Positions 28,466-48,225 of a stretch of DNA of 64,000 nt are shown in pieces. Under the pieces are notes generated by a model that had not been told where the DNA came from, searched no databases, and saw nothing but the letters and a program-made list of their open reading frames with translations. The position numbers were made by a program, and so were the translations under genes. The DNA is from Haloferula rosea (lineage in GTDB: Bacteria; Verrucomicrobiota; Verrucomicrobiia; Verrucomicrobiales; Akkermansiaceae), in the NCBI RefSeq assembly GCF_016595525.1, contig NZ_JAENII010000001.1, positions 62,001 through 126,000 on the forward strand. Direction: 5' to 3'. The stretch's first letter is position 1. Each line of letters opens with the position of its first letter.

Positions 28466-29947
<1,482 letters not shown>

Positions 29948-30002
29948 TGCAAAAACGGAGCAAGGGATCAGCGCGTGCCCCACTGGCATCATGCAAGCTC
30001 AT

Positions 30003-31220: not shown

Positions 31221-31742
31221 ATGACCAAGGATGAACTAGGAGAGCTGGTTGAAGCGCATCAGGCGGAGTTGTTCCGTTACCTGAGGTTCATCGGTGCCGA
31301 CTTCGCGACCGCGGAGGACCTGGTGCAGGAGTCGTTCATCCGGGCGTTCAGGGCCAAAGTGGCTCCGGACCTCGGAATGCATTCGGCCCGGCGAGCCTGG
31401 TTGCGTCGGATTGCCCACAACTTGTTCATCGACCATTGCCGGCGCCGCAGCCGTTCCCCCGTGAGCTTCAACAGTGAGGCGGCGGAAACGGCCGAAGATT
31501 TCTGGCACAAGGAGTTCTACCAGCATGACGAGGGTTTCGGCTGCCTCGAAGCGCTCGAGCTTTGCATGAAACGCCTGTCCGACAGGCAGCGTGAATTGAT
31601 CGAGGCATTCTATGCTGCTCGTCGTTCGCGTGAAGACATCGCGGAGTCGTTTGGGATCACCCCGAGTGGGGTGAAGGCATCCCTGCGTCGCATCCGTGCC
31701 TCGCTTGGCGAGTGCATCCACCATCGACTCGCCCAAGCATGA
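31221..31742 (+). CDS. Sigma-70 family RNA polymerase sigma factor (ECF-like)
   Basis: A 173-residue sigma factor with region 2 at about 12-80 (YLRFIGADFATAEDLVQESFIRAF, then WLRRIAHNLFIDHCRRR) and region 4 at about 115-165 (RLSDRQRELIEAFYAARRSREDIAESFGITPSGVKASLRRIR). Its stop overlaps the ATG of the FecR-domain gene by four bases, the usual sigma/anti-sigma-like pairing. A GGAAC at 31166-31170 might be the -35 of a self-recognised promoter, but no clear -10 was seen. The 234 bases upstream hold no gene. Likely controls the coupled BNR-protein gene. Confidence 0.93.
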   Translation: MTKDELGELVEAHQAELFRYLRFIGADFATAEDLVQESFIRAFRAKVAPDLGMHSARRAWLRRIAHNLFIDHCRRRSRSPVSFNSEAAETAEDFWHKEFYQHDEGFGCLEALELCMKRLSDRQRELIEAFYAARRSREDIAESFGITPSGVKASLRRIRASLGECIHHRLAQA

Positions 31743-32872
31743 AACCCGAAGAGCTCCGAGATCGATTGGTGGATCTGCTGCTTTCGGAGTCCGTCGGCAA
31801 GCAGTCGCCTCCGGATGTGAGGGAGCGGGTGCTGCAGGCGGTCAATGCCTTGCCCGAGCCCTCGACGGTCGACTTCTTGTCGAGACCGGCGCCCGTCCCG
31901 CTGCAGTCCGCGAAGCGTTCCAGAGTGCCGGCTTTGGCCATCGCAGCACTGCTCGTGCTCTTGCTGGGCGGCGGCGTCTTTCTCCAAGCCCATCGGGTCA
32001 AGATGGCCCGGACTCCGATGCTCGTCGAGGCTTCGGGAAAGGTGGATCGAGTGGGCGGTGCCCTCGGGCCGGGTGAGAGCCTGACGACAGGCCCCGGGTC
32101 CGCTGCGACGCTCCGCTATCAGGATGGCACGGTCGTCATGGTGGCTGCGGATACCCGCGTGATGGTGATGGAGGGGACGACGTGGGATCGCTCGAAACGC
32201 ATCCGGGTGATGTCCGGTCAGGTGTCCGCGGATGTGATGCCTCAACCGGATGATCATCCGCTGAGCTTCGTCTCGACCGATGCCCGATGCGAGGTGGTCG
32301 GAACTTTACTGTCCTTTCAAGTGGCCCCCGAGCGGAGTCGACTCGAAGTCCAGGAGGGATCGGTTCGCTTCATTGGTGAGGGAGGAGGCAGCCGGGTTCT
32401 GGTGGACGAGGGGTGCTTTGCCGAGGCGGGGCGATCTGGTTTCAAACATGGCCGAATCCCGGCTCCTGCGAGGGTGGGGATCGTCGGATTCACCCTCATG
32501 AATGCGGAGACCGACATGCCGATCCGTGACGAGCCCCTGGTGAGTGGCGAGGTGATCTCGCTCTCTTCGCTGCCAACGAAGAAGATCAACATCCGTGCGG
32601 ACTTCGAGGGGGAGCCTCCGGTTTCCGTGAGGATCGATCTGAGGCGTCGCCATGGCCACCCGACCGGGCTGCCGCCCCATTCGACCGATCTTCACATGCA
32701 TCCCCCGTACTTCGTCGCCGGGGATCACTGGGGAGACGGCAGGCCTGAGGACTGTGCGGAGTGGACGCCGCCCCTTGGATTCTACGAGCTGTCCGCAGAG
32801 GCGATCTACGCGGACGCCGAAAAAAGCGAGGCCTCCAGACCAATGGAACTTGAATTTCAGATCAGCAGATAG
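31739..32872 (+). CDS. FecR-domain membrane protein, probable partner of the sigma factor
   Basis: A 377-residue protein. Residues 1-60 are a cytoplasmic part that could touch the sigma factor, residues about 63-83 one membrane helix (VPALAIAALLVLLLGGGVFL), and residues about 100-250 a FecR domain (GESLTTGPGSAATLRYQDGT, IRVMSGQVSADV, FVSTDARCEVVGTLLSF, LEVQEGSVRF). The C-terminal 120 residues are unassigned. It overlaps the sigma gene and precedes the BNR gene by eight bases, so the three form one operon. Expected to relay a periplasmic signal to the sigma factor. Confidence 0.88.
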   Translation: MKPEELRDRLVDLLLSESVGKQSPPDVRERVLQAVNALPEPSTVDFLSRPAPVPLQSAKRSRVPALAIAALLVLLLGGGVFLQAHRVKMARTPMLVEASGKVDRVGGALGPGESLTTGPGSAATLRYQDGTVVMVAADTRVMVMEGTTWDRSKRIRVMSGQVSADVMPQPDDHPLSFVSTDARCEVVGTLLSFQVAPERSRLEVQEGSVRFIGEGGGSRVLVDEGCFAEAGRSGFKHGRIPAPARVGIVGFTLMNAETDMPIRDEPLVSGEVISLSSLPTKKINIRADFEGEPPVSVRIDLRRRHGHPTGLPPHSTDLHMHPPYFVAGDHWGDGRPEDCAEWTPPLGFYELSAEAIYADAEKSEASRPMELEFQISR

Positions 32873-32880
32873 ACATCACC

Positions 32881-35800
32881 GTGAAAAGAAATAGCTCTTT
32901 CATCCGTTTTGCGGCCGTCGTCCTGGCGGCCTTCTTGTCGGCTCAGTTTCAGCTTCGTGCCGCCGAACTCAACGTGCTTGAGTTGACCGAGGTGGATTCG
33001 GCGGCCCTGAATTTCTCGAGTTCCGCCGCAAACTTCAGCCAGAATGTCAACGGCAGGACTTACCAACGTTCACCGGTCAGCAGCTTCAAGGGGTATCAGT
33101 ATGCGACCTATTACGACGGCAACCGGAACGTCTGCCTTGGTCGGCGCAAGCTGCCTTCCGGTCCCTGGGAAGTGATCCGGTTTCCGGACTACTCCATCAC
33201 GAGCCATGATTCCCACAACATCACCGCGCTCGGGATCTGTGCCGGCGACGGCACGATTCACCTGGCGTTCGACCATCACAAGCATCCCCTGAACTACCGG
33301 GTCTCGTCGGTGGGGGTGGCGACGAATCCGGATGCGGTCAGCTGGTCGGCCTCGCTCTTCGGGAGTGTCACGGATGAGCTTGGATCGGTCGGGCGTCTTA
33401 CGGACGTGACGTATCCTTCATTCTTCCAAGCCCCGAATGGTAACCTGATGCTCTTTTATCGGTTCGGAGGATCGGGGAATGGAGATGGGATGATCTACGA
33501 ATACGATGGAAGTAGTAGCGATTGGAGTCCGGGGATGGGGAAGTTCATCTCCCGCTCGGGAACCTACAATGGGGCGGTGTCGAGCAACAGCACGAGCCGG
33601 AACCCCTACATCAACGGGATTTCCTACGGAGGTGATCGTTTGCACGCGTCGTGGGGATGGCGCGAGAGCAGCGGGGGTTCGCAATTCAATCATGATCTGA
33701 ACTACGCCTACAGCGACGACGACGGGCGCACCTGGAGGAACTCGGCAGGAACGCAGATCGGGGTCACTGGGTCGTCCTTCATCTCGATCCATTCATCGGA
33801 TCTGATCGTTGCGCCGATTCCCCAGAACATCGGCCTTTCGAACCAGTACACCCACTATGCCTATCCCGACGGGAGTTGTCATGTCGTCGTCGCCCACAGG
33901 GAGGGGGGGACGGGTTCGGTGCGCTACCATCACTACTGGAGGAATGCCGCTGGAACGTGGTCGAGCGAGGTGCTTCCCCTATCCGGGTCGCGCCCGAAGC
34001 TGGTGGGTGACGAAAATCGCGAGCTGTTCCTGGTTTATGTGTCCGGCAACACGCTGAGGGTGGCGAAGGGGACGCCGAATGCTTCGGAGACTGCTTGGAG
34101 TTGGTCGAGCATCCATTCACAGAGCGACAGGAGCGAGGGTGGAGAAGGTCAGATTGACGTGGCCCGATGGGAGGCTGATCGGATTCTCTCGGTTTATGGT
34201 CAGGAGGATCCTCCGAGCAACGGGTCTTCGACCGCGCTTCATGTGCTGGACTACCAGGTGTCGGCCAAGGCCATTCTTCCTCTCCCGGCGCATGAACAGT
34301 CGGACGTGGACATCGCCATCTCGCTCGAGTGGACCGGGGGGATCGATGCGGACATGCATCGGGTCTATCTGGGAACCGATCGGGCTGCCGTCGAAGCGGC
34401 GGATCCTTCCTCTCCTGAGTTTCAGGGTGAGCAGGTTGCCGCGAGCTTCACCCCCACCGGCCCTCTGGCCAAGGATACGACCTACTACTGGCGTGTCGAC
34501 GAAGTGGACTCGGAATCAAACGTCCATTCCGGGTTGATCTGGAGCTTCACCACCAGCCCGGATTTCCTTCCGGGTGATGTGGCCGACGCCAGCGTGAAGG
34601 AGGATCCCAGCGTGACGGATGTTTCCAGCCAGACGACCCTGCTCGGGGCGGGAGGTAGCAGTCCCTGGGTGGACCGCTGTACGGTGTATGTGTTTCAACT
34701 GCCGGACCTCGGGGCGGTGGCGGATCCGTTTCTCACGGCGAGCTTCCGCTTCAACATGGAGTCCAAGCAGGGCAGCCTGATGGACAATGATCTGTATGGC
34801 TTGGGGAGGAGGAGTTCTCCCGAGGTTCTCGCCAGCGACTACTATGGGCAGACGTCGACCGGTGATCCGACGGATGCCACCAGGTTGGAGGCCGGCATTC
34901 TCACCGACGCAACGCCGCTCGGTGCGATCCGCACTTCGGCGGGTGGCGACAGCGCCCTGTTGGACTACCTCAATGAACAGTATGATTCGGGGGCGGGCAT
35001 TGGTGAGTATGTCTTTCTGCGCCTGAATACTGCGGAGCCGAAAGCGGGCATCAACCGCGCCACGCTCACCATGGCTGAAAGCGGCGATGAGGGAAGTCGG
35101 CCACGGATCGTCTACTCCTCCAGCTCGGGTCCCACCGTGACGATGGTGGTGCTGGGAAGTCCGGAAGACCTGACGGATGGAGCCACCTGGTCGGATGGCC
35201 TGCCTGCGCACCCTGGATCGCATTATGTAGTTCCTGATACGGGAAATCTTCGAGGTGAGGCGGGGAGCTCCACTTTCCCGGGAATCTCTCTAACCGTGGA
35301 GAAAGGCGGCAGGTTCCAGGTCAGGAGCAAGGAGGACTTGGGGGAGTTGACGACGGTCGATCAACTGATCTTGAGCGGGGGCTCGAGCTATGCTTCCGGC
35401 AACTTTGTCGAACTCACCGCGGGAACCGGATCGATGGTGACCAATGTGCTCGATGGAGTCATCACGAACTCAGGCTTCAGCCGTTTCCTGAGCTACGGTG
35501 TTTCGGGGGGAAGCAACCTCGAGCGCAATCTGAAGGTGCATTCGCGGATTGATGGATCGGGGCGAATTCAGGCAAGGGAGGGTTCAGCGGCGGGCCTGAG
35601 TTCGGTGATCATCACCCATCCCGCCAATGGTTTCTCCGGGACATGGGAAGTGGCGGAGGGAAGTGCGCTGATCTTTGAGAATGCGGGTGCCGTGGGCACC
35701 GCGGATATCGAAGTGGCGGCAGACGCCCGTCTTGAGATTCAAGGTCACTGGACAGTGGGAGGTTCCCTGAGCGTGGCGGACACCGCGGCGACGGAAGTCG

Positions 35801-37020
35801 ATCTCGGGAGTTTCGGATGGGTCGTCGAGCAGTTGACCTTCGGATCCCTGATGATTCCAAGCGGCACCTATGGCACGGCCGAGCTCAATGCTTTCGGAAG
35901 CAACGCGGTGTTCACGGGAAGTGGAGCGCTGACGGTGATCGTCAGCGGGGAAGGTGGTCCGGTGGCCCGCTGGGCGCTTGACGAGGGGAATGGTATCCTT
36001 GCGAGCGATTCTTCGGGCAATGGGCAATCGGGTGAGCTTCTGCATGGCGCGACGTGGGGATCGGATGCAACCCGGGATTCATTTGTCGTGCTCGATGGGG
36101 TGGACGATCGGATCACGACGCCATTCGCCTATGCGCTTTCTGCCGGCGATGACTTCACCTGGGCATGGTGGGCGAATCGGGCGGCAGGCAATCACAGCGG
36201 TGCGATCATGGTGGGCAATCGTTTTCCTGAGGGACCCCCCGGGGAGAGATTCGAATTCATCAAGTTCACGGCGGTTGAAGCGCAGTTTGCCGATGTCGAG
36301 GAGGCAGGCTCGATTGCGAAGCATCCCTACGCAGAGGTTTCCGAAGGAGAGTGGCATCACTATGCCATGGTCAAGACCGGCACGAGCTACCAGTGGTATG
36401 TGGATGGCGTGCCACAGGGAGCGCCTCTGACTCATGCTTACAGTGAGTCTTCGCCGATTCCCTTCCAGATCGGTGGGGACGACAATGATGGGACGCCGGG
36501 TGGCAAGGAGAACGAGCACTTCGAGGGAATGCTCGACGATGTGGTCCTCTACGATCGGGCCCTCACCGCTGTCGAGCTCGGGAGCGTCATGGGGGGGGGC
36601 TACGCGGACCTGCCCCAAACCTGGCAGGAGAACTGGCGTCAGGCGCATTTCGGAACGAGGGAGAACTCAGGCATTGCCGCTGACGACTTCGACGCGAACT
36701 CCGATGGGGAAGACAACCTGCTCGAGTTCGCCACGGGTCAGGATCCGTTTGCAGCGACCTTGGCATCGACGCCCATGGTAGTGGGCGGGGAGAATATCGA
36801 GTTCCGCTACCGTCGAAGCAAGGCAGCCCTCGCCGATGGCGTAGCGTTTCAGGTCGAGTGGAGTGACACGATGACGGGTGGATCCTGGAGCACCGACGAC
36901 ACCGTCGATGAATCGGATCCGGAGAATCCTGACACGGCTGAGCTCGAGTTCCGGAGGGTCCTGCTCCCTGGTGGTTCGGCCGGTCGACGGTTCTGCAGGT
37001 TGAGGGTCACCGCCCCATGA
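32881..37020 (+). CDS. Multidomain secreted BNR_4 protein, ulvan-lyase-like
   Basis: A 1379-residue exported protein with GTG start and signal to about residue 28. Residues about 40-470 form a BNR_4 propeller: HDSHNITALGICAGDG, IHLAFDHHKHPLNYR and an Asp-box SDDDGRTW near 279. His112, His132, Tyr178 and Arg194 match in spacing the catalytic residues I recall for PL25 ulvan lyase (His123, His143, Tyr188, Arg204). Then a fibronectin-like domain (about 478-560), a module shared with the next two proteins (about 560-750), a beta-helix-like stretch (about 755-1020), a LamG domain (about 1023-1235) and a C-terminal module ending RRFCRLRVTAP. It is coupled to the sigma/FecR genes. Ulvan as substrate is inference. 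Confidence 0.82.
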   Translation: MKRNSSFIRFAAVVLAAFLSAQFQLRAAELNVLELTEVDSAALNFSSSAANFSQNVNGRTYQRSPVSSFKGYQYATYYDGNRNVCLGRRKLPSGPWEVIRFPDYSITSHDSHNITALGICAGDGTIHLAFDHHKHPLNYRVSSVGVATNPDAVSWSASLFGSVTDELGSVGRLTDVTYPSFFQAPNGNLMLFYRFGGSGNGDGMIYEYDGSSSDWSPGMGKFISRSGTYNGAVSSNSTSRNPYINGISYGGDRLHASWGWRESSGGSQFNHDLNYAYSDDDGRTWRNSAGTQIGVTGSSFISIHSSDLIVAPIPQNIGLSNQYTHYAYPDGSCHVVVAHREGGTGSVRYHHYWRNAAGTWSSEVLPLSGSRPKLVGDENRELFLVYVSGNTLRVAKGTPNASETAWSWSSIHSQSDRSEGGEGQIDVARWEADRILSVYGQEDPPSNGSSTALHVLDYQVSAKAILPLPAHEQSDVDIAISLEWTGGIDADMHRVYLGTDRAAVEAADPSSPEFQGEQVAASFTPTGPLAKDTTYYWRVDEVDSESNVHSGLIWSFTTSPDFLPGDVADASVKEDPSVTDVSSQTTLLGAGGSSPWVDRCTVYVFQLPDLGAVADPFLTASFRFNMESKQGSLMDNDLYGLGRRSSPEVLASDYYGQTSTGDPTDATRLEAGILTDATPLGAIRTSAGGDSALLDYLNEQYDSGAGIGEYVFLRLNTAEPKAGINRATLTMAESGDEGSRPRIVYSSSSGPTVTMVVLGSPEDLTDGATWSDGLPAHPGSHYVVPDTGNLRGEAGSSTFPGISLTVEKGGRFQVRSKEDLGELTTVDQLILSGGSSYASGNFVELTAGTGSMVTNVLDGVITNSGFSRFLSYGVSGGSNLERNLKVHSRIDGSGRIQAREGSAAGLSSVIITHPANGFSGTWEVAEGSALIFENAGAVGTADIEVAADARLEIQGHWTVGGSLSVADTAATEVDLGSFGWVVEQLTFGSLMIPSGTYGTAELNAFGSNAVFTGSGALTVIVSGEGGPVARWALDEGNGILASDSSGNGQSGELLHGATWGSDATRDSFVVLDGVDDRITTPFAYALSAGDDFTWAWWANRAAGNHSGAIMVGNRFPEGPPGERFEFIKFTAVEAQFADVEEAGSIAKHPYAEVSEGEWHHYAMVKTGTSYQWYVDGVPQGAPLTHAYSESSPIPFQIGGDDNDGTPGGKENEHFEGMLDDVVLYDRALTAVELGSVMGGGYADLPQTWQENWRQAHFGTRENSGIAADDFDANSDGEDNLLEFATGQDPFAATLASTPMVVGGENIEFRYRRSKAALADGVAFQVEWSDTMTGGSWSTDDTVDESDPENPDTAELEFRRVLLPGGSAGRRFCRLRVTAP

Positions 37021-37075: not shown

Positions 37076-37097
37076 TTGTCCCGAAAACAGGGGACAA
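37076..37097 (+). promoter_or_regulatory. 22-bp palindrome upstream of the two-gene secreted-protein operon (site A)
   Basis: TTGTCCC-N8-GGGACAA with spacer GAAAACAG, 161 bases upstream of the ATG at 37259 and 55 bases after the previous stop. A run of five T follows, so a terminator for the BNR gene is the alternative, but the same spacing and near-identical spacer recur at 50562 without a T-run. Confidence 0.6.
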
Positions 37098-37258: not shown

Positions 37259-40200
37259 ATGGTGAATAACCCTACACTCATCCGATTTCTTGCCGCCGTG
37301 CTTCTGGTGACGCAGATCTCTGCCTACGAGGTCTGGATCGGCACCCATCTGATGCGGAGTGCTGATGCCAATGACCTTCCGTCCTGGTCGCTCACGGCTT
37401 CGCAGGTCGACGGATTCAACGTCAACCGGGCTCCCCACGATACCGATCCAGCCTCGAATCAAGAGTATCGGACCATCTTCCAGCAGTTTACCAATGCGGA
37501 AAGTGCGATTACCGAGTTCGCCCGTTCTCAGGCGACGCGTGATCCAGAGAAGGTCGACGAGCTCGCATTCCCTTCCATTGCGCAGCGGCTTGAGGACATA
37601 TTCAGTCTGGAAAGAAACTTCGGCTACGAACTGACGGCCATCATGTTCTACGACGAGCGGGGGACCTTTCAGGGGACGGAATACCTCTACGAATGGACGG
37701 ATACTGAGATCCAGTATTTGCGGGACTGGCTGGACGACAATGGCCACTCGGACATCGAGTTGAAATGGAATGTCCGCAACAACAGCGTGCGAAACCAGCA
37801 GATCGCCGCGAAACCAATCGTTGATTCGGTCGAGATCGAGGCAAGCACGACCGCCCTGCTTAACAATACGAACAACCAGATCACCTTCTTCACGTGGTAT
37901 TGGAACAATCCCGCTACCGCGAACAAGCCGATCGCCCTGCAGATCCCAAGAACGCTGAATTCGCTCAACCAGTTCAAGGGAACGCGGCGGGTGGCCGAGA
38001 AAATCGGAGGGATCATCGGATATGGCGATGACGGTATGCGTAGTGATCGCCTCATCTTTCTGCCCGTTACCTATAACGACAACTACGACTATCTTCCCGA
38101 GACGGTTTCCAACGGCGCGAACTACACCAACACGCTGACCAGCATCGCGCTTTCCCTGATTGAGCAGCGAACCCTGTTCGAGGGGCGTGTCCGCGTTCCC
38201 ACGATCGCCGATGCGGACAGCACCACCCGGCTGTTTCCGCCGACGGTTGATCCGATCGCCGACCAGATCGTGCCATCCGGGACTTCGACCGGACCTCTGG
38301 CATTCTCCGTTGGCGATGATGCGACCCCGGCATCCGATCTAACGATCTCGAAGAGTTCATCGAATACCAGTCTAGTATCGGAGGCGAATATCGTGTTCGG
38401 GGGTAGCGGTGCGAACCGAACAGTGGAAATTACGCCGGAGCCCGGCCAGAGTGGTAGCGCCGAGATCGAACTCTGGGTGGGGGATGGCACGCTTGGCACT
38501 CCGGTGAGTTTTACCGTTACCGTGCTTCCGCCGGGACTGATCCCGGAGACGCTGTATAGCCTGGCTCCCGATTGTTCGATCAAGGAGAATCTGGAGCTCG
38601 AGAAGCAATCCTCCGCGACGGTGGATGTGGGTTCCCGGGGGTCGGGGTCGGGGGTGGAGCGGTGTACCGTCTATGTGTTCCAACTGCCGGACCTGGGGGT
38701 GACAGCGAATCCGTTTCAAGAGGCCAACTTCACATTCAACTACGTGGCCAAGAGCTCGACCTTGAGAGGTCATGATCTCTACGGGCTGGGTCGACGGAGT
38801 AGTCCTACACCTGTGCCGGGAGACTACTATGCCGAGACGACCACAGCGGACCCGACGGATGCCACGCGACTTCAGCAGGCGATCATGAACAACAGTACGC
38901 CGCTGGGTCTGGTGACCACCACCGCCGGAGGCAGTGCCAATCTGGCGGCTTACCTCAACGCCCAGTACGCCGGTGGGGCGGGGGCGGGTGAATATGTCTT
39001 CCTCCGGATCAACACCCGGGACACGGGATCCGGGGTCAACTACGCGACCCTGACCATGTCGGAGGGCGGTGCATCCGGTCCGGTCGACACCCGGCCACGA
39101 ATCCGCTACACGGCGACGAACCCGGTTCCGACCATCACCTCCATTCCCAGTCAGACCTTGGGCTTGGGTGAGTCATCAGACGGGCTATCGTTTGCGATCG
39201 GTGATGACGGCACTCCGGCGGGTTCGCTCGCTCTAAGCGGATTGTCCAGCGACACCACATTGGTTCCTAACAGCAACATCGTCTTTGGAGGCAGTGGAGC
39301 GAACCGCACGGTGACCGTCACTCCCGCCCCTGGACTCCTTGGTTCGGTGGACATCACCATTCAGGTCAGCGATGGAACTTTCACTGCGGAAACCAATTTC
39401 ACGGTTACGGTGGAGGGGACTCAACAAGTGATGGCGGGCTGGGATTTCTGGAGCAGCGATACGGCTCCTGATGCGAATGTGACCGCGGCCGGAATCATAG
39501 CGAGCGCGAGTGCATCGACTGCTACGGGGAACTGGAGCAGGACCGATGATGGAGGTAGTGGTCGTGGATCCAGTGGAGATCAGACCTGGGGCTCCTTCGG
39601 TGGGAACGGTGTCTTGGCGAGCGCGGTGACCTCAGGCTCCAGCTCGAATCTGACCGCCTTGAACGGGGTGACCGACGCGGAGCTCACCCTGACCGTCACC
39701 AACAACGGTCCCACCGATTGGGAACTCGACGCCTTCCACATGGATGTGATCGCTTTCCGTCCCAACGCGCCCCGAACCTACGAGTTGGAGGTGGTCAGTG
39801 GTGACGTCACCCAAGGGGTGGTTTTCACCTCGGCGGACGACGAGATCAGTGAGCTCGGAGGAAGTCTTTCGGGATCCAACGACGATCACGACGAGGTCGA
39901 CATCGATCTTTCGGGGCTTGCCGACTCGACTCTCGAGACAGGCGGCAGCGCGGTGTTCCGGATCACCTTTTCAAGTGGGACCGGATCAGGCGGTGGTCAT
40001 CACCTGTTCCTCGACAACGTCGCGGTGTCTGGAGCGACAGTTCCACTGTCGGAGCGTGAGAACTGGCGCTTTCGGTATTTCGGAACGATCGAGAACTCCG
40101 GAGTGGCCGCGGATGGATTTGATGTGAACGACGACGGCGAAAGCAACCTTCTTGAGTTTGCCACCGGCCAGGATCCCCATGCTGCGACCCGTGCGGTAAC

Positions 40201-40450
40201 GACTTTGGACCTCGCTGGAGGCGGAACGACCTTCCGCTATGCCCGGAGCAAGGCGGCGCTTGCCGACGGGTTCATCTTTCAACCGATGTGGAGTGATTCG
40301 CTCGCTGCGGGTTCATGGAGCACCGTGGACCTCGTGGATGGACCGGATCCGCGAAATCCAGATACCGCCGACCTGGAGTTCCGGCGCGCCACGATGCCTC
40401 TCAGTCAAGAGGGGCGCCGATTCTTCCGCCTAGAGATTTTAGAACCATGA
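37259..40450 (+). CDS. Multidomain secreted protein with an unrecognised N-terminal domain
   Basis: A 1063-residue exported protein (signal to about residue 22). Residues about 23-320 form an unrecognised domain, possibly a barrel, with YEVWIGTHLMRSAD, LTAIMFYDERGTFQGTEYLYEW, IELKWNVRNN and FFTWYWNN. Two Ig/cadherin-like repeats (about 327-427 and 621-720) share VFGGSGANRTV(E/T)(I/V)TP. Between them, about 429-620, is the VYVFQLPDLG...DLYGLGRRSSP module also present in the BNR protein and the next protein. Residues about 724-928 hold an AGWD-type module shared with the next protein. The C-terminus ends RRFFRLEILEP. Its stop overlaps the next ATG by four bases. Confidence 0.75.
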   Translation: MVNNPTLIRFLAAVLLVTQISAYEVWIGTHLMRSADANDLPSWSLTASQVDGFNVNRAPHDTDPASNQEYRTIFQQFTNAESAITEFARSQATRDPEKVDELAFPSIAQRLEDIFSLERNFGYELTAIMFYDERGTFQGTEYLYEWTDTEIQYLRDWLDDNGHSDIELKWNVRNNSVRNQQIAAKPIVDSVEIEASTTALLNNTNNQITFFTWYWNNPATANKPIALQIPRTLNSLNQFKGTRRVAEKIGGIIGYGDDGMRSDRLIFLPVTYNDNYDYLPETVSNGANYTNTLTSIALSLIEQRTLFEGRVRVPTIADADSTTRLFPPTVDPIADQIVPSGTSTGPLAFSVGDDATPASDLTISKSSSNTSLVSEANIVFGGSGANRTVEITPEPGQSGSAEIELWVGDGTLGTPVSFTVTVLPPGLIPETLYSLAPDCSIKENLELEKQSSATVDVGSRGSGSGVERCTVYVFQLPDLGVTANPFQEANFTFNYVAKSSTLRGHDLYGLGRRSSPTPVPGDYYAETTTADPTDATRLQQAIMNNSTPLGLVTTTAGGSANLAAYLNAQYAGGAGAGEYVFLRINTRDTGSGVNYATLTMSEGGASGPVDTRPRIRYTATNPVPTITSIPSQTLGLGESSDGLSFAIGDDGTPAGSLALSGLSSDTTLVPNSNIVFGGSGANRTVTVTPAPGLLGSVDITIQVSDGTFTAETNFTVTVEGTQQVMAGWDFWSSDTAPDANVTAAGIIASASASTATGNWSRTDDGGSGRGSSGDQTWGSFGGNGVLASAVTSGSSSNLTALNGVTDAELTLTVTNNGPTDWELDAFHMDVIAFRPNAPRTYELEVVSGDVTQGVVFTSADDEISELGGSLSGSNDDHDEVDIDLSGLADSTLETGGSAVFRITFSSGTGSGGGHHLFLDNVAVSGATVPLSERENWRFRYFGTIENSGVAADGFDVNDDGESNLLEFATGQDPHAATRAVTTLDLAGGGTTFRYARSKAALADGFIFQPMWSDSLAAGSWSTVDLVDGPDPRNPDTADLEFRRATMPLSQEGRRFFRLEILEP

Positions 40451-43400
40451 AACCCAGACGACCATTTTTTATGAAGCGCTTTGTTGTCACGCTGCTATCC
40501 ACAGCTGCCATCGCATCGGCCCAAGTTTACAACGAGTCGGGCGGCCTGGTGGTGATGGAGATCGAGAACACCGCATCGCCTCTGGGGTTGTGGCAGGAGC
40601 AGAGTTCCCTGTCCGGCTACAGCGGGGACGGCTATCTGCAGTTCCTCGGCAACAGCTACGAGACGGGTCCTGCGACTTCGCCTCTTGAGTTCAACTTCAC
40701 CATTAATCAGTCCGGGCTCTACTACCTGCACCTGCATTGCGCCAAGGAAACCCACGATGGGCGGACGGATGTGGCCAATGACTGCTACGTGCGCGTCGAA
40801 GGCGACTACAACGCGGGGCCGGGACCGCACGATGGTCACGGCGACAATGCCTCACTCTCCGTGCTGAAGAACAATACGAAGTACTTCGGTGGGGCGACGA
40901 ACAGCTGGAAGTGGGAGAACGGCCAGAACTCCTCCGGTGGTGCCGGGAATCTTGACCCGGGTGGACACGCCAACAAGCGGGTCGCTGTCTATGATTTCAA
41001 GGCGGGCGAAACCTACAAGCTCGTGGTCTCCGGCCGCTCCAAGTTCTTCCGCATCAACCGCATCGTCTTCCGTCACACCTCGACGTCGCAGAGTGTGGCG
41101 CAGAACCTGAGCACGCCCGAATCGGACACGACCGGGGGGGGAGAGACGTGCTACGTTTACGATGCGACTTCCGATTTTCCGGACATCACCTCCGGAGATG
41201 TGGACTACTATGCCGACAACGGCAATGACGCGCTGGCGATCGCGGCCAACATCGTGGAGAATCGAACCGGATTCGCCCGCGCCTCGCGCGCCTTCGACGG
41301 TCCTACGGGAACCTACGACGTGACCATCACGACGATGACCGAGGAGGATGGGGAGTCGACCTATCATCTGCTGGTGAATGGCGTGCAGGTGGCCACCTAC
41401 ACCAACCCTTATGTTTTCGTCGAGCAGGGCAATTCCCCCCTCGACCTCCAGCCGCACACCCACACTTGGAGCGGGATCTCGATCCCGAATGGAGCGACGA
41501 TCGCGATCGAGTCGAATGCCGACACCAACGGCGAAATCCCGGAGAACGGAGGAACCGCCTGGGCGCGCGGCCGCTGGCAGCAGATTGAGATTTGTTCCAG
41601 CACCTCGCTGGTCCGTCCGCCGGCCGGCCGGATCGCCTATGTCGCCGACGGCAACTCGCCGGATCCGGATGACATCGGCGCCAACGCGGTGGTCTTCGGG
41701 CTCCTTGATGGCGCGGGATTGCAGGATCGGCTGGTCCACTTCTCGCATTCGTGCGACCTCAATCCCCTCGCCACCGGCGGAAGCCAGAGTATCGACGCTT
41801 CCAATGAGCAGCGCCGCCAGAACTACCTGCATCAAACCGCCGGAGAGGGGATCGCGCACTTCGGGCCGTTCCCGAACCTGACGGACTACTACAACTGCCG
41901 CAGCGAGCAATCCGCAGCCGTCAACGACCTGCGCGACGCCATCAACGCGTCTTCGGCCGGCGATCCGCTTTGGATCATCGAAGCCGGAGAGCCCGACATC
42001 ATCGGCTACGCCCTTGATGCCGCCACCCCGTCCAAGCGGCAATTCGTTCATGCGATCTCCCATCATCCGGCCAACGACAACAGCGGCGACTTCTACACCT
42101 GGGCGCAAATCCTTGCCTTCGGCGTGACCGAACACCAGATCGGCGACCAGAACGTCGGCCTGCAGGTGCAGATCAGCTCAGGGCTCTGGGACTGGGCCGA
42201 GGGTCACAGCGACCCGGCGATGGTCTGGATTCTCGACCAGCTCAAGTATGCGGAAGCGGACGGGGTTGTTGGCTTTCAAGACAACAAGTATGACTGTTCC
42301 GACGCGGGGATGATCTACTGGTGGATCACCGGTGCCAATGCGGGCGGCAACCGCAACTCGACTCCGGTCGAGATCAAGGACATGCTTCTCTACGAAGGAG
42401 CCCCGGGGCCGGTCGATCCGCTTCGTCCGGTGGGCCATTGGAAGTTGGACGAAGGCACGGGCACGGCGGCCGTGGATTCTTCCGATTTCGGCAATGATGG
42501 AACGCTGCTCAACGGCGTGAGCTGGGGAAGCGATGGCACCCGCGGCACCTATGCCCAGTTCGACGGGAGCGACGACCGCATTGCCACGCCGTTCCGCTAC
42601 GCGCTCTCTTCGAGCGACGACTTCACCTGGGCCTGGTGGGCGAAGGTGGAGCCCGGCAACTCGACCGGAGCGATCATGGTTGGCAACCGCTACGGCGGCA
42701 CGGGTTCGGAGAACCTCGAGTTCATCAAGCTGATGCAGCACGAGGCGCAGTTAGCCAATTCGGACAGTGCCGGATCGATTGAGAAGTACAACTATGCCGA
42801 CCTTCCCACCGACCAGTGGCACCACTATGCGATGGTCAAGTCGGGAACGAGTTATCAATGGTATGTCGATGGTGTGGCGCAAGGGGCACCCCAGACCTTC
42901 AGCTACAGCGAGAGCTCGTCCATCCCATTCCTGATCGGTGGCGATGATGATGGCAGTGGGACGAAGGTGAACGAGCACTTCGAGGGATGCATCGACGATG
43001 TGGTGCTTTATCGACGGGCTCTGACCCCTGCCGAACTTGTGGATGTCCAGAACGGGATCTATTTTCCGGCCCCACCCTCGATCGAGATTCTCGCGGGATG
43101 GGATTCATGGGATAGCGACTCGGCTCCAAGTGCCACTGTGACGGCGGCGGGAGTGAGTGCTTCGGCCACGGCCTCGGCGGAAAGCGGCGCTAGCAGCTGG
43201 AGCACTAGCGACAGTTCGGGCGACCCTGGTCGCGGATCGAGTGATGACGGAACCTGGGGAGGCTTCGACGAGGATGTGTCGGCCAGCACGGTGACCAATG
43301 TCCATGGATCCAACATGACTCTGACCAACGCCAAGACAGACGGTGAGATCACCCTTACCATTACCAATAATGGTGCGTCGGATATTGAACTGAATGGGTT

Positions 43401-46400
43401 TCACTTCGACGCCGTGGCCTTCCGACCAAAGGCAGCCAGGGCCTACGCGCTGAGCGTGCTGGCCGGCAGCGACATTTCCGTCGGCAACGTTTTCACCTCG
43501 GCCGACGATGTGATCACCGATCTCGAGGGAGGCCTGAGCGGTCATAATCAGCATGATCAGATCGACCTCGATCTGTCCGGTCTGGCGGACGCGACACTGG
43601 AGGTTGGTGGAACGGCGGTTCTCCAACTCACATTTTCGAGTGGGGCGGGCGACGGATCCGGCGGGCACCATTTGTTCGTCGACAATGTCGCCATCACCCA
43701 TGCGGTGGCCTCAACTCCGGTCAATGCGCCGCAGGTCAATGCCGGTTCGGATGTGTCTGTCACCCTTCCCGTCAACCAAGCGAACCTGGTCGGCACGGCG
43801 ACGGACAATGGCACGGTCGTCTCGACCGTCTGGACTCAGGAGTCGGGTCCCGGAACGGCGACGCTCAGCGGCGAGAACTCGCTCAACCTGACCGCGTCCG
43901 ATTTGGTTCAAGGAAGCTATGTTTTCCGCCTGACCGCGACGGATGATGAGAGCAACAGTTCATTCGATGAGGTCACGGTGAACGTGCTGCCGGTCGGTGG
44001 TGGCACGGCCGCGATTACGGGTGAGTTGAAGAAGTGGCATAAGGTGACCTTCTCCTGGAATGGACCGAGCAGCAGTGAAACGGCTGGAACTAACCCCTTC
44101 AGCGACTACCGGCTCAACGTGACCTTCAGCCATGCCGGCAGCGGGAAGAGCTACACCGTGCCGGGCTACTTCGCCGCCGATGGCAACGCCGCCGAGACCT
44201 CGGCCGACTCGGGGAATGTCTGGAGGGCGCATTTCGCGCCGGACGAGGAAGGGGAATGGAGTTATTCCGCATCCTTCCGCACTGGATCTGACGTGGCGGT
44301 CAGTTCGGCGATCGGGGCGGGATCTTCAGCCGGTTTCTTTGACGGCGATGGCGGACTGTTCACCATCGGTGGGACCGACAAGACCGGCCGCGACCTGCGT
44401 GGCAAGGGCAGGCTCCAGTACGTCGGCAAGCACCACCTTCAGTTTGCCGAAACCGGCGAGTATTTCCTCAAGGCCGGACCGGACGCACCGGAAAACTTCC
44501 TGGCCTACGATGACTTCGACGACACCCCGAATGATCAGGACAACCAGCCGAACAACCGCAAGTCATGGGGTCCTCATGCCGGAGACTACGATGCTGCTTC
44601 CGCGTCGCCATTCACCTGGCAGTCGGGCAAGGGCACCGAGATCCTGGGAGCGGTTCGCTATCTGGCTGAGAAGGGTCTGAACTCCTTCTCGTTCCTGACC
44701 TTCAATGTAGATGGAGACGACGACAACGTTTTCCCGCATCGTCTGAGGTCCACCGTGTCGGCCTACGAAGGTGTGGCGGATAACGCCCGCTGGGCAAATG
44801 CCAATGGAGTGTTCCACGACCGCTTCGACGTCTCGAAGATGGCGCAATGGGAGCGGGTCTTCGAGTACGGCACCCAGCAGGGGATGTATCTCCATTTCAA
44901 AACCCAGGAAACCGAGAATGACGACCGGATGGATGGTGGGGGACTTGGGCGGGAACGTACGCTCTACTACCGCGAGTTGGTGGCCCGCTTCGGCCATCAT
45001 CTGGCCCTCAATTGGAATCTCGGGGAGGAGAACACCAATACCACGGCACAACAGCAGGATTTCGCTCAGTGGTTCCACGACAACGACCCCTACCAACACA
45101 ACGTGGTGCTCCACACCTACCCCTGGCAGAAGGACGCGGTTTACACTCCGCTGTTGGGAACCGCTTCCAAGCTCACGGGGCTGTCGCTTCAAACGAATCA
45201 GGCCGATTTTACCAATGTCTTTCCGGATACCCTCGCGTGGGTGAAGAACTCCGCGGGGGCGGGCGTACCGTGGGTGGTCGCCTGCGACGAACCGGGCGAC
45301 GCGCAGCACGCGCTGCGTCCGGCGGGCGACGCCGGAAGTAGCTGGACCGACGGCCGCAAGAACGCCCTTTGGGGCAACGTGATGGCGGGTGGTGCCGGGG
45401 TGGAGTTCTACTTCGGTTACCAGCATGCCAACTCTGACCTCACCTGTCAGGACTATGCGTCCCGCGACGGCTTCTGGGACTATTGCCGCTACATGATCGA
45501 GTTCTTCGAGAACAACGAGGTTCCCTTCCAGGACATGGCCAACGAGGATGCGCTGGTTTCGAACTCCGGGGCTTGGTGCTTGCGCAAGACCGGAACCGAC
45601 TACGTGATCTATCTGAAGAACGGAGGCACCACCAATCTCGATCTGAGTGCCGCATCGGGCGACTTCGATGTCCGCTGGTATGATCCGCGCAACGGCGGCG
45701 TGTTGCAGCAGGGCTCGGTCGTCAGCGTGAACGGTGGCGGGGCCGTGAGTCTTGGCACCGCGCCTTCCGCGAATACCTCGGATTGGGTCGTGCTGGTCAG
45801 CAATGGTGCCGGCGGCGGGAACACGCTGAACGGTGAGATGCCAGGACTCGAGGAGGATGCCGATGTCCGCAATGACTCGGTGGTCGTGAATCTTGGAGCG
45901 GACTCGCTGGTGCCCGGGAAATCCGGAGGGGGAGGTGGATTCGACCGCGCCACGATTTTTGTCTTCCAACTCCCCGACCTCGGGATGATCGATGACCCCT
46001 TCCTCGCCGCAACGCTGAGTTTCAATGTGGTGGACGTCAGCACATCTCCGCCTGGGGTGGATCTTTATGGTCTGGGAAGGAGGGTGCTGCCTGACGTGCT
46101 TGCCGGCGATTACTACGGGGAGAACGGGACGCCTGATCCAACGGATGCGGATCTGATCCAAAGCAACATCCTTACCAGTAGCACCGGCACAGGGGCGGTT
46201 AGTTCGAGTGCAAGCAGCGCCCTGGCCGCCTACTTGAATGCCCAGTACGACGGCGGCAATGGAGTGGGTAAGTATGTGTTCCTGCGCTTGAGCACGAACG
46301 GGGTGATCAGCGGACTGCAGCGGCATTTCGTCACATCGGCAGATGCCCCGGGCGGCGCGGGTCCTCGTATTTCGTTCAGCGCTATTGAGGAATCGGACTC

Positions 46401-46800
46401 GGCCGTGTCGCAGGACTTTAGCGACTGGCTTGCTGGATTCAGCTTCCCGCCCGGTGCGGATCTGAACCCGGACGGGGATCCCGACCTGGACGGCCGGACC
46501 ACGGAGTTCGAATACCTTTTTGGACTGGATCCTTCGGACGGAGCTTCAACCCACCCCTTCGTCAGTTTTCCGGAGCCGATCGGCGGCACCTTCCGCTACA
46601 CCCGCAGGAATCCGGCTCTTACCGGCGTGACGGACTATCAGGTATGGATGTCAAATGACTTGTCCGGATGGAGTCGTGACGCCACTGCGACCCAGACGGT
46701 GGTGGTCGATGCCGATGTGCAGGAAGTGGAAGTGACGCTGTCCGGACCCAAACCACTTGCGGCCCCCAGGTTGTTCGCCCAGATCCGGGTCGGTGAGTAG
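40447..46800 (+). CDS. Giant secreted protein: nucleoside-hydrolase-like, LamG, DUF5060 and glycosidase-like domains
   Basis: A 2117-residue exported protein; signal MKRFVVTLLSTAAIASA follows a short basic leader (40471 is an alternative start). Order: two carbohydrate-binding-like beta domains (about 25-390); a nucleoside-hydrolase-like domain (about 394-655) with YVADGNSPDPDDIGANAV; LamG (about 660-873); AGWD module (about 882-1088); PKD-like repeat (about 1090-1185); DUF5060 (about 1187-1310); a barrel-like glycosidase candidate (about 1318-1705) with LALNWNLGEENTNT; a collagen-binding-like domain (about 1705-1790, RWYDPRNGGVL); the shared VFQLPDLG module (about 1795-1980); and a C-terminal module ending FAQIRVGE. 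Probably a cell-surface or secreted glycan-degrading protein; no single substrate can be named. Confidence 0.78.
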   Translation: MKPRRPFFMKRFVVTLLSTAAIASAQVYNESGGLVVMEIENTASPLGLWQEQSSLSGYSGDGYLQFLGNSYETGPATSPLEFNFTINQSGLYYLHLHCAKETHDGRTDVANDCYVRVEGDYNAGPGPHDGHGDNASLSVLKNNTKYFGGATNSWKWENGQNSSGGAGNLDPGGHANKRVAVYDFKAGETYKLVVSGRSKFFRINRIVFRHTSTSQSVAQNLSTPESDTTGGGETCYVYDATSDFPDITSGDVDYYADNGNDALAIAANIVENRTGFARASRAFDGPTGTYDVTITTMTEEDGESTYHLLVNGVQVATYTNPYVFVEQGNSPLDLQPHTHTWSGISIPNGATIAIESNADTNGEIPENGGTAWARGRWQQIEICSSTSLVRPPAGRIAYVADGNSPDPDDIGANAVVFGLLDGAGLQDRLVHFSHSCDLNPLATGGSQSIDASNEQRRQNYLHQTAGEGIAHFGPFPNLTDYYNCRSEQSAAVNDLRDAINASSAGDPLWIIEAGEPDIIGYALDAATPSKRQFVHAISHHPANDNSGDFYTWAQILAFGVTEHQIGDQNVGLQVQISSGLWDWAEGHSDPAMVWILDQLKYAEADGVVGFQDNKYDCSDAGMIYWWITGANAGGNRNSTPVEIKDMLLYEGAPGPVDPLRPVGHWKLDEGTGTAAVDSSDFGNDGTLLNGVSWGSDGTRGTYAQFDGSDDRIATPFRYALSSSDDFTWAWWAKVEPGNSTGAIMVGNRYGGTGSENLEFIKLMQHEAQLANSDSAGSIEKYNYADLPTDQWHHYAMVKSGTSYQWYVDGVAQGAPQTFSYSESSSIPFLIGGDDDGSGTKVNEHFEGCIDDVVLYRRALTPAELVDVQNGIYFPAPPSIEILAGWDSWDSDSAPSATVTAAGVSASATASAESGASSWSTSDSSGDPGRGSSDDGTWGGFDEDVSASTVTNVHGSNMTLTNAKTDGEITLTITNNGASDIELNGFHFDAVAFRPKAARAYALSVLAGSDISVGNVFTSADDVITDLEGGLSGHNQHDQIDLDLSGLADATLEVGGTAVLQLTFSSGAGDGSGGHHLFVDNVAITHAVASTPVNAPQVNAGSDVSVTLPVNQANLVGTATDNGTVVSTVWTQESGPGTATLSGENSLNLTASDLVQGSYVFRLTATDDESNSSFDEVTVNVLPVGGGTAAITGELKKWHKVTFSWNGPSSSETAGTNPFSDYRLNVTFSHAGSGKSYTVPGYFAADGNAAETSADSGNVWRAHFAPDEEGEWSYSASFRTGSDVAVSSAIGAGSSAGFFDGDGGLFTIGGTDKTGRDLRGKGRLQYVGKHHLQFAETGEYFLKAGPDAPENFLAYDDFDDTPNDQDNQPNNRKSWGPHAGDYDAASASPFTWQSGKGTEILGAVRYLAEKGLNSFSFLTFNVDGDDDNVFPHRLRSTVSAYEGVADNARWANANGVFHDRFDVSKMAQWERVFEYGTQQGMYLHFKTQETENDDRMDGGGLGRERTLYYRELVARFGHHLALNWNLGEENTNTTAQQQDFAQWFHDNDPYQHNVVLHTYPWQKDAVYTPLLGTASKLTGLSLQTNQADFTNVFPDTLAWVKNSAGAGVPWVVACDEPGDAQHALRPAGDAGSSWTDGRKNALWGNVMAGGAGVEFYFGYQHANSDLTCQDYASRDGFWDYCRYMIEFFENNEVPFQDMANEDALVSNSGAWCLRKTGTDYVIYLKNGGTTNLDLSAASGDFDVRWYDPRNGGVLQQGSVVSVNGGGAVSLGTAPSANTSDWVVLVSNGAGGGNTLNGEMPGLEEDADVRNDSVVVNLGADSLVPGKSGGGGGFDRATIFVFQLPDLGMIDDPFLAATLSFNVVDVSTSPPGVDLYGLGRRVLPDVLAGDYYGENGTPDPTDADLIQSNILTSSTGTGAVSSSASSALAAYLNAQYDGGNGVGKYVFLRLSTNGVISGLQRHFVTSADAPGGAGPRISFSAIEESDSAVSQDFSDWLAGFSFPPGADLNPDGDPDLDGRTTEFEYLFGLDPSDGASTHPFVSFPEPIGGTFRYTRRNPALTGVTDYQVWMSNDLSGWSRDATATQTVVVDADVQEVEVTLSGPKPLAAPRLFAQIRVGE

Positions 46801-46809
46801 GGTGATGCT

Positions 46810-48225
46810 TCAGTCCTTGTACTGATCGAGCAGTTCGCTGAGCTCGCGATGCACTTCGGGGTGTTGGCCTGAGAGTTCCTCAGTTTCTCCAGGGTCGGTC
46901 CCGAGGTCGTAGAGTTCGACCGGGCCATCGACACCATAGCGAACGGCCTTCCACTTCCCTTTGCGGGCGGCTTGGAAGACTTCACCGACGATCCCGGAAT
47001 TCGGATCACCGGCCTGTTTGCCGAACTCCCAGTAGAGGATGCGTTCGGGGAGGGGATCGGGCTGGTCGTTGAGCAAGGGGGCGATGGATAGGCCATTGGT
47101 TTTCACACGTGGCACGGTGTTGAGGTTGACCCCGGAGAGATCCGCAAAGGTAGGCAGCACGTCGGCGAAGGCCCAGGGGGTGTCATCGGTCCGGCTCTTC
47201 TTGATTGCAGCAGGCCAGTGAAGAATCATGGGCACATGGATGCCTCCATCGTAGAGGTCGCGCTTCATGCCCTTGTAGGGGGCAGATGCCTGGAAGAACT
47301 CCGGGTCGGCACCTCCCTCATCGTGCGGTCCGTTGTCGGAGGTGAAGAAGATCAGTGTGTTGTCAGCGATGCCCTTGTCTTCAAGCACGTTGACGATTTC
47401 ACCGACATAGGAATCCAGCGCTGTAACCATGCCTGCCAGGGTGGCGTGGGGGTGGTCGACCGCTTCGGGGTAGTACCAGGCATACTTGTCCGAGGGGGAT
47501 CCGGTCGACATGCCGGTGTAGGGTTTCTTGGGGAGCTCACCATGATAGGGCGTCACGAACTTCTCGGGAGCGGCGAGTTCGGCGTGTGGAGAGGAGTAGG
47601 AAAGCATGACGAAGAACGGATTCTCACGGTCCTCCTTGATGTAATGGATTGCTTCGTCGGTGAAGAGCCGCTGTGCGTAGGCGCCCTTCTTTCCTCCTTC
47701 GTTCTCCTCGATCCTGAGTTTCTGTCCATCGCGCCAGAGAATCTGTGGATACTGGCGGTGCCCCTCGAGGATGGAGTACATTCCGAACCAGGTATCGAAT
47801 CCCATCGCGAGGGGGTCGGTGACGCCCATCTGGGATCCGATGGAGTATTTGCCGAACAGAGCGGTGTCGTAGCCCGCATGTTTGAGCACGTGTCCGAAGG
47901 TGACATCGAGTTTATCGAGCTCCACGGTGTTCGAGTTGTTCGTCATCAGGCGGCCGTCACGACCGGTGAAGAGAGATACGCGCGAAGGCGAGCAAACGGT
48001 GTTCCCCGAGTATGCCTGGGTGAAGAGGATGCCGTTCGCGGCGAGGCGATCGAGATTCGGTGTGCGGATCGGTGTGTCGCCGTAGGCACCGATCTGGTTG
48101 ATCCCGAGGTCATCCGTGAGGATGAACAGGATGTTGGGTTTTACGGCTGCCTGGCCATGAGTCGCAAGAGCGGTCAGGAGGAGCAATCCTGCGTGCAGAG
48201 TCGATCGGGTTTTCGAGGTGTTCAT
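46810..48225 (-). CDS. Secreted arylsulfatase-type sulfatase
   Basis: A 471-residue formylglycine sulfatase with signal STLHAGLLLLTALATHGQAA. NILFILTDDLGINQIGAYG provides metal ligands and CSPSR at Cys78 is the intact maturation motif. FFVMLSYSSPHAELAAPEKF, FFTSDNGPHDEGG, and FADVLPTFADLSG are standard arylsulfatase A-like segments. It is convergent with the giant glycosidase gene (ten-base gap) and divergent from the GH10 gene. It probably removes sulfate esters from the same polysaccharide as the neighbouring enzymes. Confidence 0.94.
   Translation of the reverse strand: MNTSKTRSTLHAGLLLLTALATHGQAAVKPNILFILTDDLGINQIGAYGDTPIRTPNLDRLAANGILFTQAYSGNTVCSPSRVSLFTGRDGRLMTNNSNTVELDKLDVTFGHVLKHAGYDTALFGKYSIGSQMGVTDPLAMGFDTWFGMYSILEGHRQYPQILWRDGQKLRIEENEGGKKGAYAQRLFTDEAIHYIKEDRENPFFVMLSYSSPHAELAAPEKFVTPYHGELPKKPYTGMSTGSPSDKYAWYYPEAVDHPHATLAGMVTALDSYVGEIVNVLEDKGIADNTLIFFTSDNGPHDEGGADPEFFQASAPYKGMKRDLYDGGIHVPMILHWPAAIKKSRTDDTPWAFADVLPTFADLSGVNLNTVPRVKTNGLSIAPLLNDQPDPLPERILYWEFGKQAGDPNSGIVGEVFQAARKGKWKAVRYGVDGPVELYDLGTDPGETEELSGQHPEVHRELSELLDQYKD

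Follow-up and report, generated by a model that had tools for sequence, protein, structure and literature searches.

The protein described here is related to β-propeller enzymes of the polysaccharide lyase families PL42, PL24 and PL25; PL28 has a different fold. Its nearest described relative, FoRham1 of Fusarium oxysporum (PL42; structures 7esk, 7esl and 7esn), is a BNR_4 propeller of 419 amino acids in its mature form, and according to three reports (PMC8377490, PMC10951650, PMC13169297) it acts by syn β-elimination, with His85 as base and acid, Asp83 and His105 helping, and Arg166 neutralizing the carboxylate. BT3686, BACCELL_00856 and BACINT_00347, formerly assigned to GH145 and now to PL42, have reported activity on rhamnose-capped arabinogalactans, and PMC8406133 describes the anterior site of Bacteroides relatives as a lyase site, active towards wine AGP but inactive towards gum arabic. 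The PL24 ulvan lyases LOR_107 and Uly1 share with the protein studied here the propeller and a His/His/Tyr/Arg set, and the PL25 ulvan lyase PLSV_3936 shares the propeller and Asp/His/His/Tyr/Arg. Literature searches joining BNR_4 and lyase with Verrucomicrobi, or BNR-4 and lyase with ulvan, returned no paper, which is not proof of absence from print, the spelling BNR-4 missing BNR_4.

Gene and domain organization

The window, a 64,000-nucleotide stretch of the Haloferula rosea genome, carries a BNR_4 gene (Table 1) which the initial annotation had placed at 32881–34290. The start holds, whereas 34290 is only the end of the catalytic domain, the frame continuing to 37020. The 1379-aa product, with a Pfam BNR_4 match at aa 72–362 (6.9e-71), is, judging from its sequence, most likely a PL42-type (former GH145) lyase that is secreted and built of several domains. 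In contrast to the short fungal enzyme, it carries a LamG domain and other C-terminal parts, which probably anchor the lyase to the glycan or to the cell surface, and its gene follows a sigma/FecR pair. The coupling to this pair was described correctly: the sigma factor stop codon and the FecR start codon overlap by 4 nt (ATGA), and 8 nt separate the FecR stop codon from the GTG of the lyase gene, whose expression the pair probably controls. A terminator-like site 3' of the lyase gene (37076–37097) carries no weight, since chance alone would give 5.1 sites of this sort in the scan that yielded seven.

Table 1. Features of the window and, in the last seven lines, counterparts of its genes on contig C7 of G240, another genus of the same family
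Feature	Position	Strand	Basis or remark
Sulfatase	28466–29992	-	Pfam 1.5e-44; best PDB match 6hhm, 2e-53
ECF-type sigma factor, 173 aa	31221–31742	+	Pfam Sigma70_r2 1.2e-14, Sigma70_r4_2 1.8e-9
FecR-like regulator	31739–32872	+	Pfam FecR 1.4e-11
Lyase gene, whole	32881–37020	+	open frame, GTG start, 1379 aa
Probable signal peptide, aa 1–28	32881–32964	+	by eye: basic start, hydrophobic stretch
Predicted catalytic BNR_4 β-propeller, ~aa 52–460	33034–34260	+	Pfam, PDB matches, fold model
Tyr61 (=Tyr26 FoRham1), putative rhamnose subsite	33061–33063	+	alignment
Asp110 (=Asp83 FoRham1) and putative base/acid His112 (=His85 FoRham1, His123 PL25)	33208–33216	+	alignment
His133, putative second catalytic histidine (=His105 FoRham1, His143 PL25)	33277–33279	+	His in 41/41 rows
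Tyr178 (=Tyr150 FoRham1, Tyr188 PL25)	33412–33414	+	41/41 rows
Arg194, putative carboxylate neutralizer (=Arg166 FoRham1, Arg204 PL25)	33460–33462	+	39/41 rows
Tyr243 and Arg261 (=Tyr202, Arg220 FoRham1), putative glucuronate side	33607–33663	+	alignment
Asn321–Gln322 (=Asn275–Gln276 FoRham1), putative rhamnose subsite	33841–33846	+	alignment
Arg371 (=Arg331 FoRham1), putative contact to rhamnose O2/O3	33991–33993	+	alignment
Glu422 (=Glu381 FoRham1), would hold the rhamnose arginine	34144–34146	+	alignment
LamG/concanavalin-like domain, aa 1072–1232	36094–36576	+	Pfam Laminin_G_3 1.4e-15
Following gene, 1063 aa, with unclassified N-terminal domain	37259–40450	+	no Pfam over cut-off
DUF5060/LamG/PKD large protein, probable glycoside hydrolase (inference)	40315–46800	+	Pfam
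Sulfatase	46810–48225	-	Pfam 9.2e-58
GH10 enzyme	48477–50447	+	Pfam 6.1e-23
Sulfatase	54244–55803	+	best PDB match P18_S1_7 (6hhm), E 1.5e-131
G240:C7, keto29820 homologue			58% over 285 aa
G240:C7, PL42-like gene			50%, of paralogue branch
G240:C7, CotH homologue			66% over 1800 aa
G240:C7, GH10 homologue			59% over 613 aa
G240:C7, counterpart of the 50657 3-keto hydrolase domain			45% over 203 aa
G240:C7, 37259 homologue			57% over 723 aa
G240:C7, start of 40315 homologue			70.6% over 445 aa, up to contig end

Similarity, fold and active site

The top PDB matches by sequence were FoRham1 (7esl, 2.2e-53) and then the GH145/PL42 enzymes of Bacteroides (1e-25 to 4e-24); PL24 entries matched far more weakly (1e-8 to 1e-6), and no PL25 chain was found by phmmer at E≤1. 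The same order is given by the fold. An AlphaFold2 model of the catalytic domain, built from six sequences (pLDDT 80.3, pTM 0.85), superposes on 7esl with a VIA Z of 45.2 (398 aligned residues, 2.2 Å), against 37.9–41.0 for GH145/PL42 entries, 32.9–34.6 for PL24, 29.5 for PL25, the lowest value among the lyases, and 22–25 for lectins; Foldseek ranks the matches likewise.

The anterior site of FoRham1 comprises Y26, D83, H85, H105, Y150, R166, S170, Y202, R220, N275, Q276, R331 and E381 (numbered with one fixed offset, under which all 14 positions taken from PMC8377490 and PMC10951650 give the expected letter), and 13 of these 13 residues are identical in the query. In the query, the predicted catalytic and glucuronate side is made up of D110, H112, H133, Y178, R194, S198, Y243 and R261, and the predicted rhamnose side of Y61, N321, Q322, R371 and E422. 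Neither FoRham1 nor the query has the posterior catalytic histidine of BT3686 (His48), the query having Phe69 in that column, in which 10 of the 41 BNR_4 sequences aligned have His. The three Bacteroides enzymes resemble the query in the propeller, the anterior His/His/Tyr/Arg set and the Asn-Gln pair, but their rows have Phe at position 61, where the query has Tyr, and are 27–28% identical to it in the structure alignment.

Leaving FoRham1 aside, the full set occurs in six of 40 rows (the query, L007, L008, L023, L025 and L030); PL42-type rows of Bacteroidota (B. finegoldii, Hymenobacter and 4irt, the last partial) keep 10–12 of the 13 residues, the four PL24 rows 6–7, the PL25 row 7 and the remaining rows 5–12. 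The protein is thus probably a PL42-type, rhamnose-releasing L-rhamnose-α-1,4-D-glucuronate lyase, as its sequence and the fold model suggest. Counting against this assignment, many other BNR_4 rows keep 10–12 residues, which makes the full set a matter of degree, the query and FoRham1 agree at only about 37% of 360 aligned positions, and the NCBIfam BT3686 model, with its cut-off of 700 bits, gives the query a much lower score of 156.5 bits.

As D110, H112, H133 and R194 are identical to their counterparts in FoRham1, the mechanism of that enzyme can be carried over to the query. The propeller would bind a terminal L-rhamnose α-1,4-linked to D-glucuronate, the carboxylate of which would be neutralized by Arg194 together with His133 and Tyr178. 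His112, held by Asp110, would take the C5 proton and then pass it to the leaving rhamnose oxygen in a syn β-elimination, so that the products would be free rhamnose and a 4,5-unsaturated glucuronate left on the glycan. Chemistry, exo mode and linkage would be those of FoRham1, exo action being predicted from the conserved rhamnose subsite. The substrate would be a complex plant or algal glycan, from which rhamnose would be clipped off glucuronic acid.

Comparison with ulvan lyases

The initial annotation had read the protein as a PL25-type ulvan lyase. Its structural basis, a BNR_4 β-propeller with a His/His/Tyr/Arg lyase apparatus, is upheld by Pfam, the fold model and the alignment; H112, H132, Y178 and R194 all occur just as it had described, as do the motifs HDSHN and FDHHKH, and the match in spacing to the PL25 catalytic residues is real, reflecting homology and not chance. 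The equivalences drawn for H112, Y178 and R194 also stand, but His143 of PL25 had been paired with H132, while it aligns with H133, owing to a one-residue insertion (GICAGDG). In the alignment of the H105F mutant chain 7esn, His105 of FoRham1 is the second H of FDHH and lies opposite H133 of the query. The H133 column has His in 41 of the 41 rows and the H132 column in 27, with Asn in row L025, which is 64% identical to the query.

Across the 41 rows, which include PL24 and PL42 sequences, H112, H133 and Y178 never vary and R194 is kept in 39; these counts describe the family and not independent events, the rows being related and chosen by similarity. A set common to nearly all the BNR_4 propellers compared gives no pointer to PL25; similarly, His123, Tyr188 and Arg204 of PL25 with the neighbouring His143, although present in the query, are found in PL24 and PL42 rows as well and are therefore not diagnostic. 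Other PL25 positions, listed in PMC13193363, separate the two proteins: the query has S111, I114 and S198 where PL25 has its substrate residues Asn122 and Lys125 and its zinc ligand His208, while in the region of the zinc ligands His264, Cys266 and His278 the alignment is broken by gaps.

An endo-acting ulvan lyase similar to those of PL25 or PL24, which would cut rhamnose-3-sulfate–GlcA/IdoA bonds within ulvan, has in its favour the shared His/His/Tyr/Arg apparatus. The PL25 assignment is not supported, in view of the three replaced marker residues, the lowest lyase Z and the lack of a phmmer match at E≤1, whereas pAlt76 RS20455, used as a query in the PDB search, finds the PL25 enzyme PLSV_3936 at 9e-252. 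Identity to the query is 18% for the PL25 row from pAlt76 and about 20–24% for the PL24 enzymes. In addition, the predicted contacts to rhamnose O2/O3 match those of FoRham1, whose bound rhamnose is unsulfated. On this evidence, and that of the tree and neighbourhood given below, ulvan-lyase activity of this type is unlikely, while ulvan is a possible natural substrate. As a possible model, the ulvan dehydratase P29_PDnc was rejected; PMC8511951 names Asp, Arg and Lys as the residues that this enzyme needs, and the words "propeller" and "BNR" do not occur in the main text of that paper.

Phylogeny and distribution

BNR_4 relatives of the query (E≤1e-30) were found in 13 of 387 genomes drawn from the phylum, that of H. 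rosea included, and none was found in viral contigs. Fourteen of the 20 phylum matches entered a tree of 41 BNR_4 domains; L022, L024, L035, L038 and L040 are copies (L024 and L008 were taken as one gene from their coordinates), and L032, with two internal stops, was left out. Of 14 plasmid records with matches, 7 were used (H1, H2, H3, H4, H6, H7 and H10), and the four PL24 rows and one PL25 row come from plasmids of Alteromonas sp. 76-1 and Catenovulum. RS20300, RS20305 and RS20455 were checked against the PDB as PL24, PL24 and PL25, respectively, the other two rows being PL24 by their place in the tree. The top PDB match of pAlt76 RS20240 (L012:23784–25307) is FoRham1 (9e-33).

The query belongs to a supported Verrucomicrobiota/Kiritimatiellota clade of ten rows (support 98/99), which come from its own family, from two further families within the phylum, and from records of Pontiellaceae, Pelagicoccus and Verrucomicrobiales; no characterized enzyme was met among the ten. 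Against the PL42 assignment, no supported node unites the clade with FoRham1 or with the Bacteroides enzymes, and the clade's sister group and the backbone lack resolution. In AU tests, joining the query clade to the four PL24 rows was rejected (p 0.007), to FoRham1 alone weakly rejected (p 0.043) and to PL25, a single very long branch, not rejected (p 0.19), the first result speaking against an ulvan lyase and the last for it. Tests with the query row alone (with PL24, p 0.001; PL25, p 0.030; FoRham1, p 0.0002) are superseded by those of the whole clade, since there are near relatives of this row in the tree. Long branches (PL25, own_L006, L008b and RS20240) and an unusual composition of four rows drew warnings from the tree program. 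On its own the tree leaves the family undecided, and the PL42 assignment consequently rests on similarity, fold and pocket.

Genomic neighbourhood

Pfam searches covered the larger likely genes of the window. They confirmed the sulfatases (three), the GH10 gene and the GH39-like gene previously described around the lyase gene, and added a CotH-like protein and two proteins with 3-keto-disaccharide hydrolase domains; one protein, at 50657–54247, combines such a domain with a C-terminal cytochrome c domain. The number of sulfatases does not exceed the genome background, however: the 4.68-Mb genome has 117 Pfam matches, including a few that are parts of a single gene or are cut off at contig ends, 1.6 are expected per 64 kb, and P(≥3) is 0.22 under a Poisson model that assumes an even spread, the actual spread being uneven. 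Sulfatase clustering was accordingly discarded, as statistically weak, as evidence for a sulfated glycan. Dense sulfatase runs occur on contig C11 of the genome (~174–290 kb).

The closest PDB entry to the sulfatase at 54244, 6hhm, is P18_S1_7, an endo-2-sulfo-xylose sulfatase for ulvan according to PMC9096561, and this likeness favours an ulvan lyase, as do the GH10 and GH39-like neighbour genes. The searches with the 54244 and 28466 sulfatases also list iduronate and choline sulfatases. A further point on that side is that the ulvan plasmid of Alteromonas sp. 76-1 (PMC6431674) carries a PL42-like BNR_4 gene (RS20240) with sulfatase and GH88 genes nearby.

Counterparts of the window genes are clustered in G240 on contig C7 (236865–258047; L056, L057), so that a cassette is shared between genera, as judged from sequence similarity. 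It does not clearly include the sulfatases, the nearest matches to those of the window being distant (21–33%), though the contig ends within the cassette. The GH10, GH39-like and P18_S1_7-like genes agree in part with the sulfated rhamnose/uronate/xylose glycan proposed earlier, but sulfatases are spread genome-wide, and those of the window are only distantly matched in the related cassette. A closer homologue of the lyase in G240 (61% over 710 aa) lies on contig C22, where the cassette neighbours are absent from the surrounding 20 kb apart from shared repeat parts.

The protein encoded at 37259–40450 has matches at 1e-10 in 3 of 387 phylum genomes, including that of H. rosea and one with a match of only 29%. 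Its homologue in L007 (61% over 1057 aa by tblastn) adjoins a PL42-like lyase gene, and its N-terminal domain is 76% identical in G240:C7. For this domain, about 300 aa, no Pfam match over the cut-off and no PDB match were found, and the first 434 aa had no PDB match at E≤1 (phmmer) and no plasmid match at 1e-3; the structure model of the domain, made from 2 sequences, has a pLDDT of 31.7.

Elsewhere in the H. rosea genome, a rhamnose isomerase gene and eight GH78 matches count for the PL42 assignment. Against it counts that one weak GH88-family match was found in the genome, on another contig (C68:48347–49006, L051), so that the step which usually follows for the unsaturated product is not apparent. 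This match adjoins a heparinase II/III-like gene. At C33:371.7–381.9 kb (L046), two tandem PL42-like genes precede a gene of the Alginate_lyase family (PF05426) and one for a GH106 rhamnosidase.

Leaving sugar and place of the clade

A propeller lyase of the same mechanism could release some other sugar from the uronate, for instance a rhamnose that bears sulfate or other substituents, or a different deoxy sugar. The PL42 enzymes of Bacteroides, whose anterior site differs little, discriminate between wine AGP and gum arabic (PMC8406133), and the natural glycan therefore cannot be read from the pocket alone; moreover, the query clade stands separate in the tree, and the Tyr61 position is His in five of its ten rows, though Tyr in the query. 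The rhamnose-subsite residues of the query are, however, identical to those of FoRham1, and a different leaving sugar is improbable. Least credible of all is hydrolysis at a posterior site like that of BT3686 (GH145), or a propeller that binds without catalysis, which would accord with the hydrolases among former GH145 members and with lectins as the lower fold matches, but conflicts with the phenylalanine at the His48 position and with the anterior catalytic residues, all of them kept and invariant in a six-sequence comparison.

The Verrucomicrobiota/Kiritimatiellota clade might be viewed as a lyase subfamily of its own, distinct from PL24, PL25 and classical PL42, with a conserved cassette (PL42-like lyase, GH10, DUF5060 enzyme, CotH-like protein, 3-keto-disaccharide hydrolases and the 37259 protein) and an undescribed rhamnose-capped glycan of glucurono-xylan type as its substrate, a proposal that is doubtful.

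For the family, the His/His/Tyr/Arg signature by itself cannot call an ulvan lyase. Tyr61, Asn321–Gln322, Arg371 and Glu422 are jointly suggested as markers to help distinguish FoRham1-like propellers from those of PL24 and PL25. The members of the Verrucomicrobiota/Kiritimatiellota clade, apparently uncharacterized, are within reach of a simple 235-nm assay.
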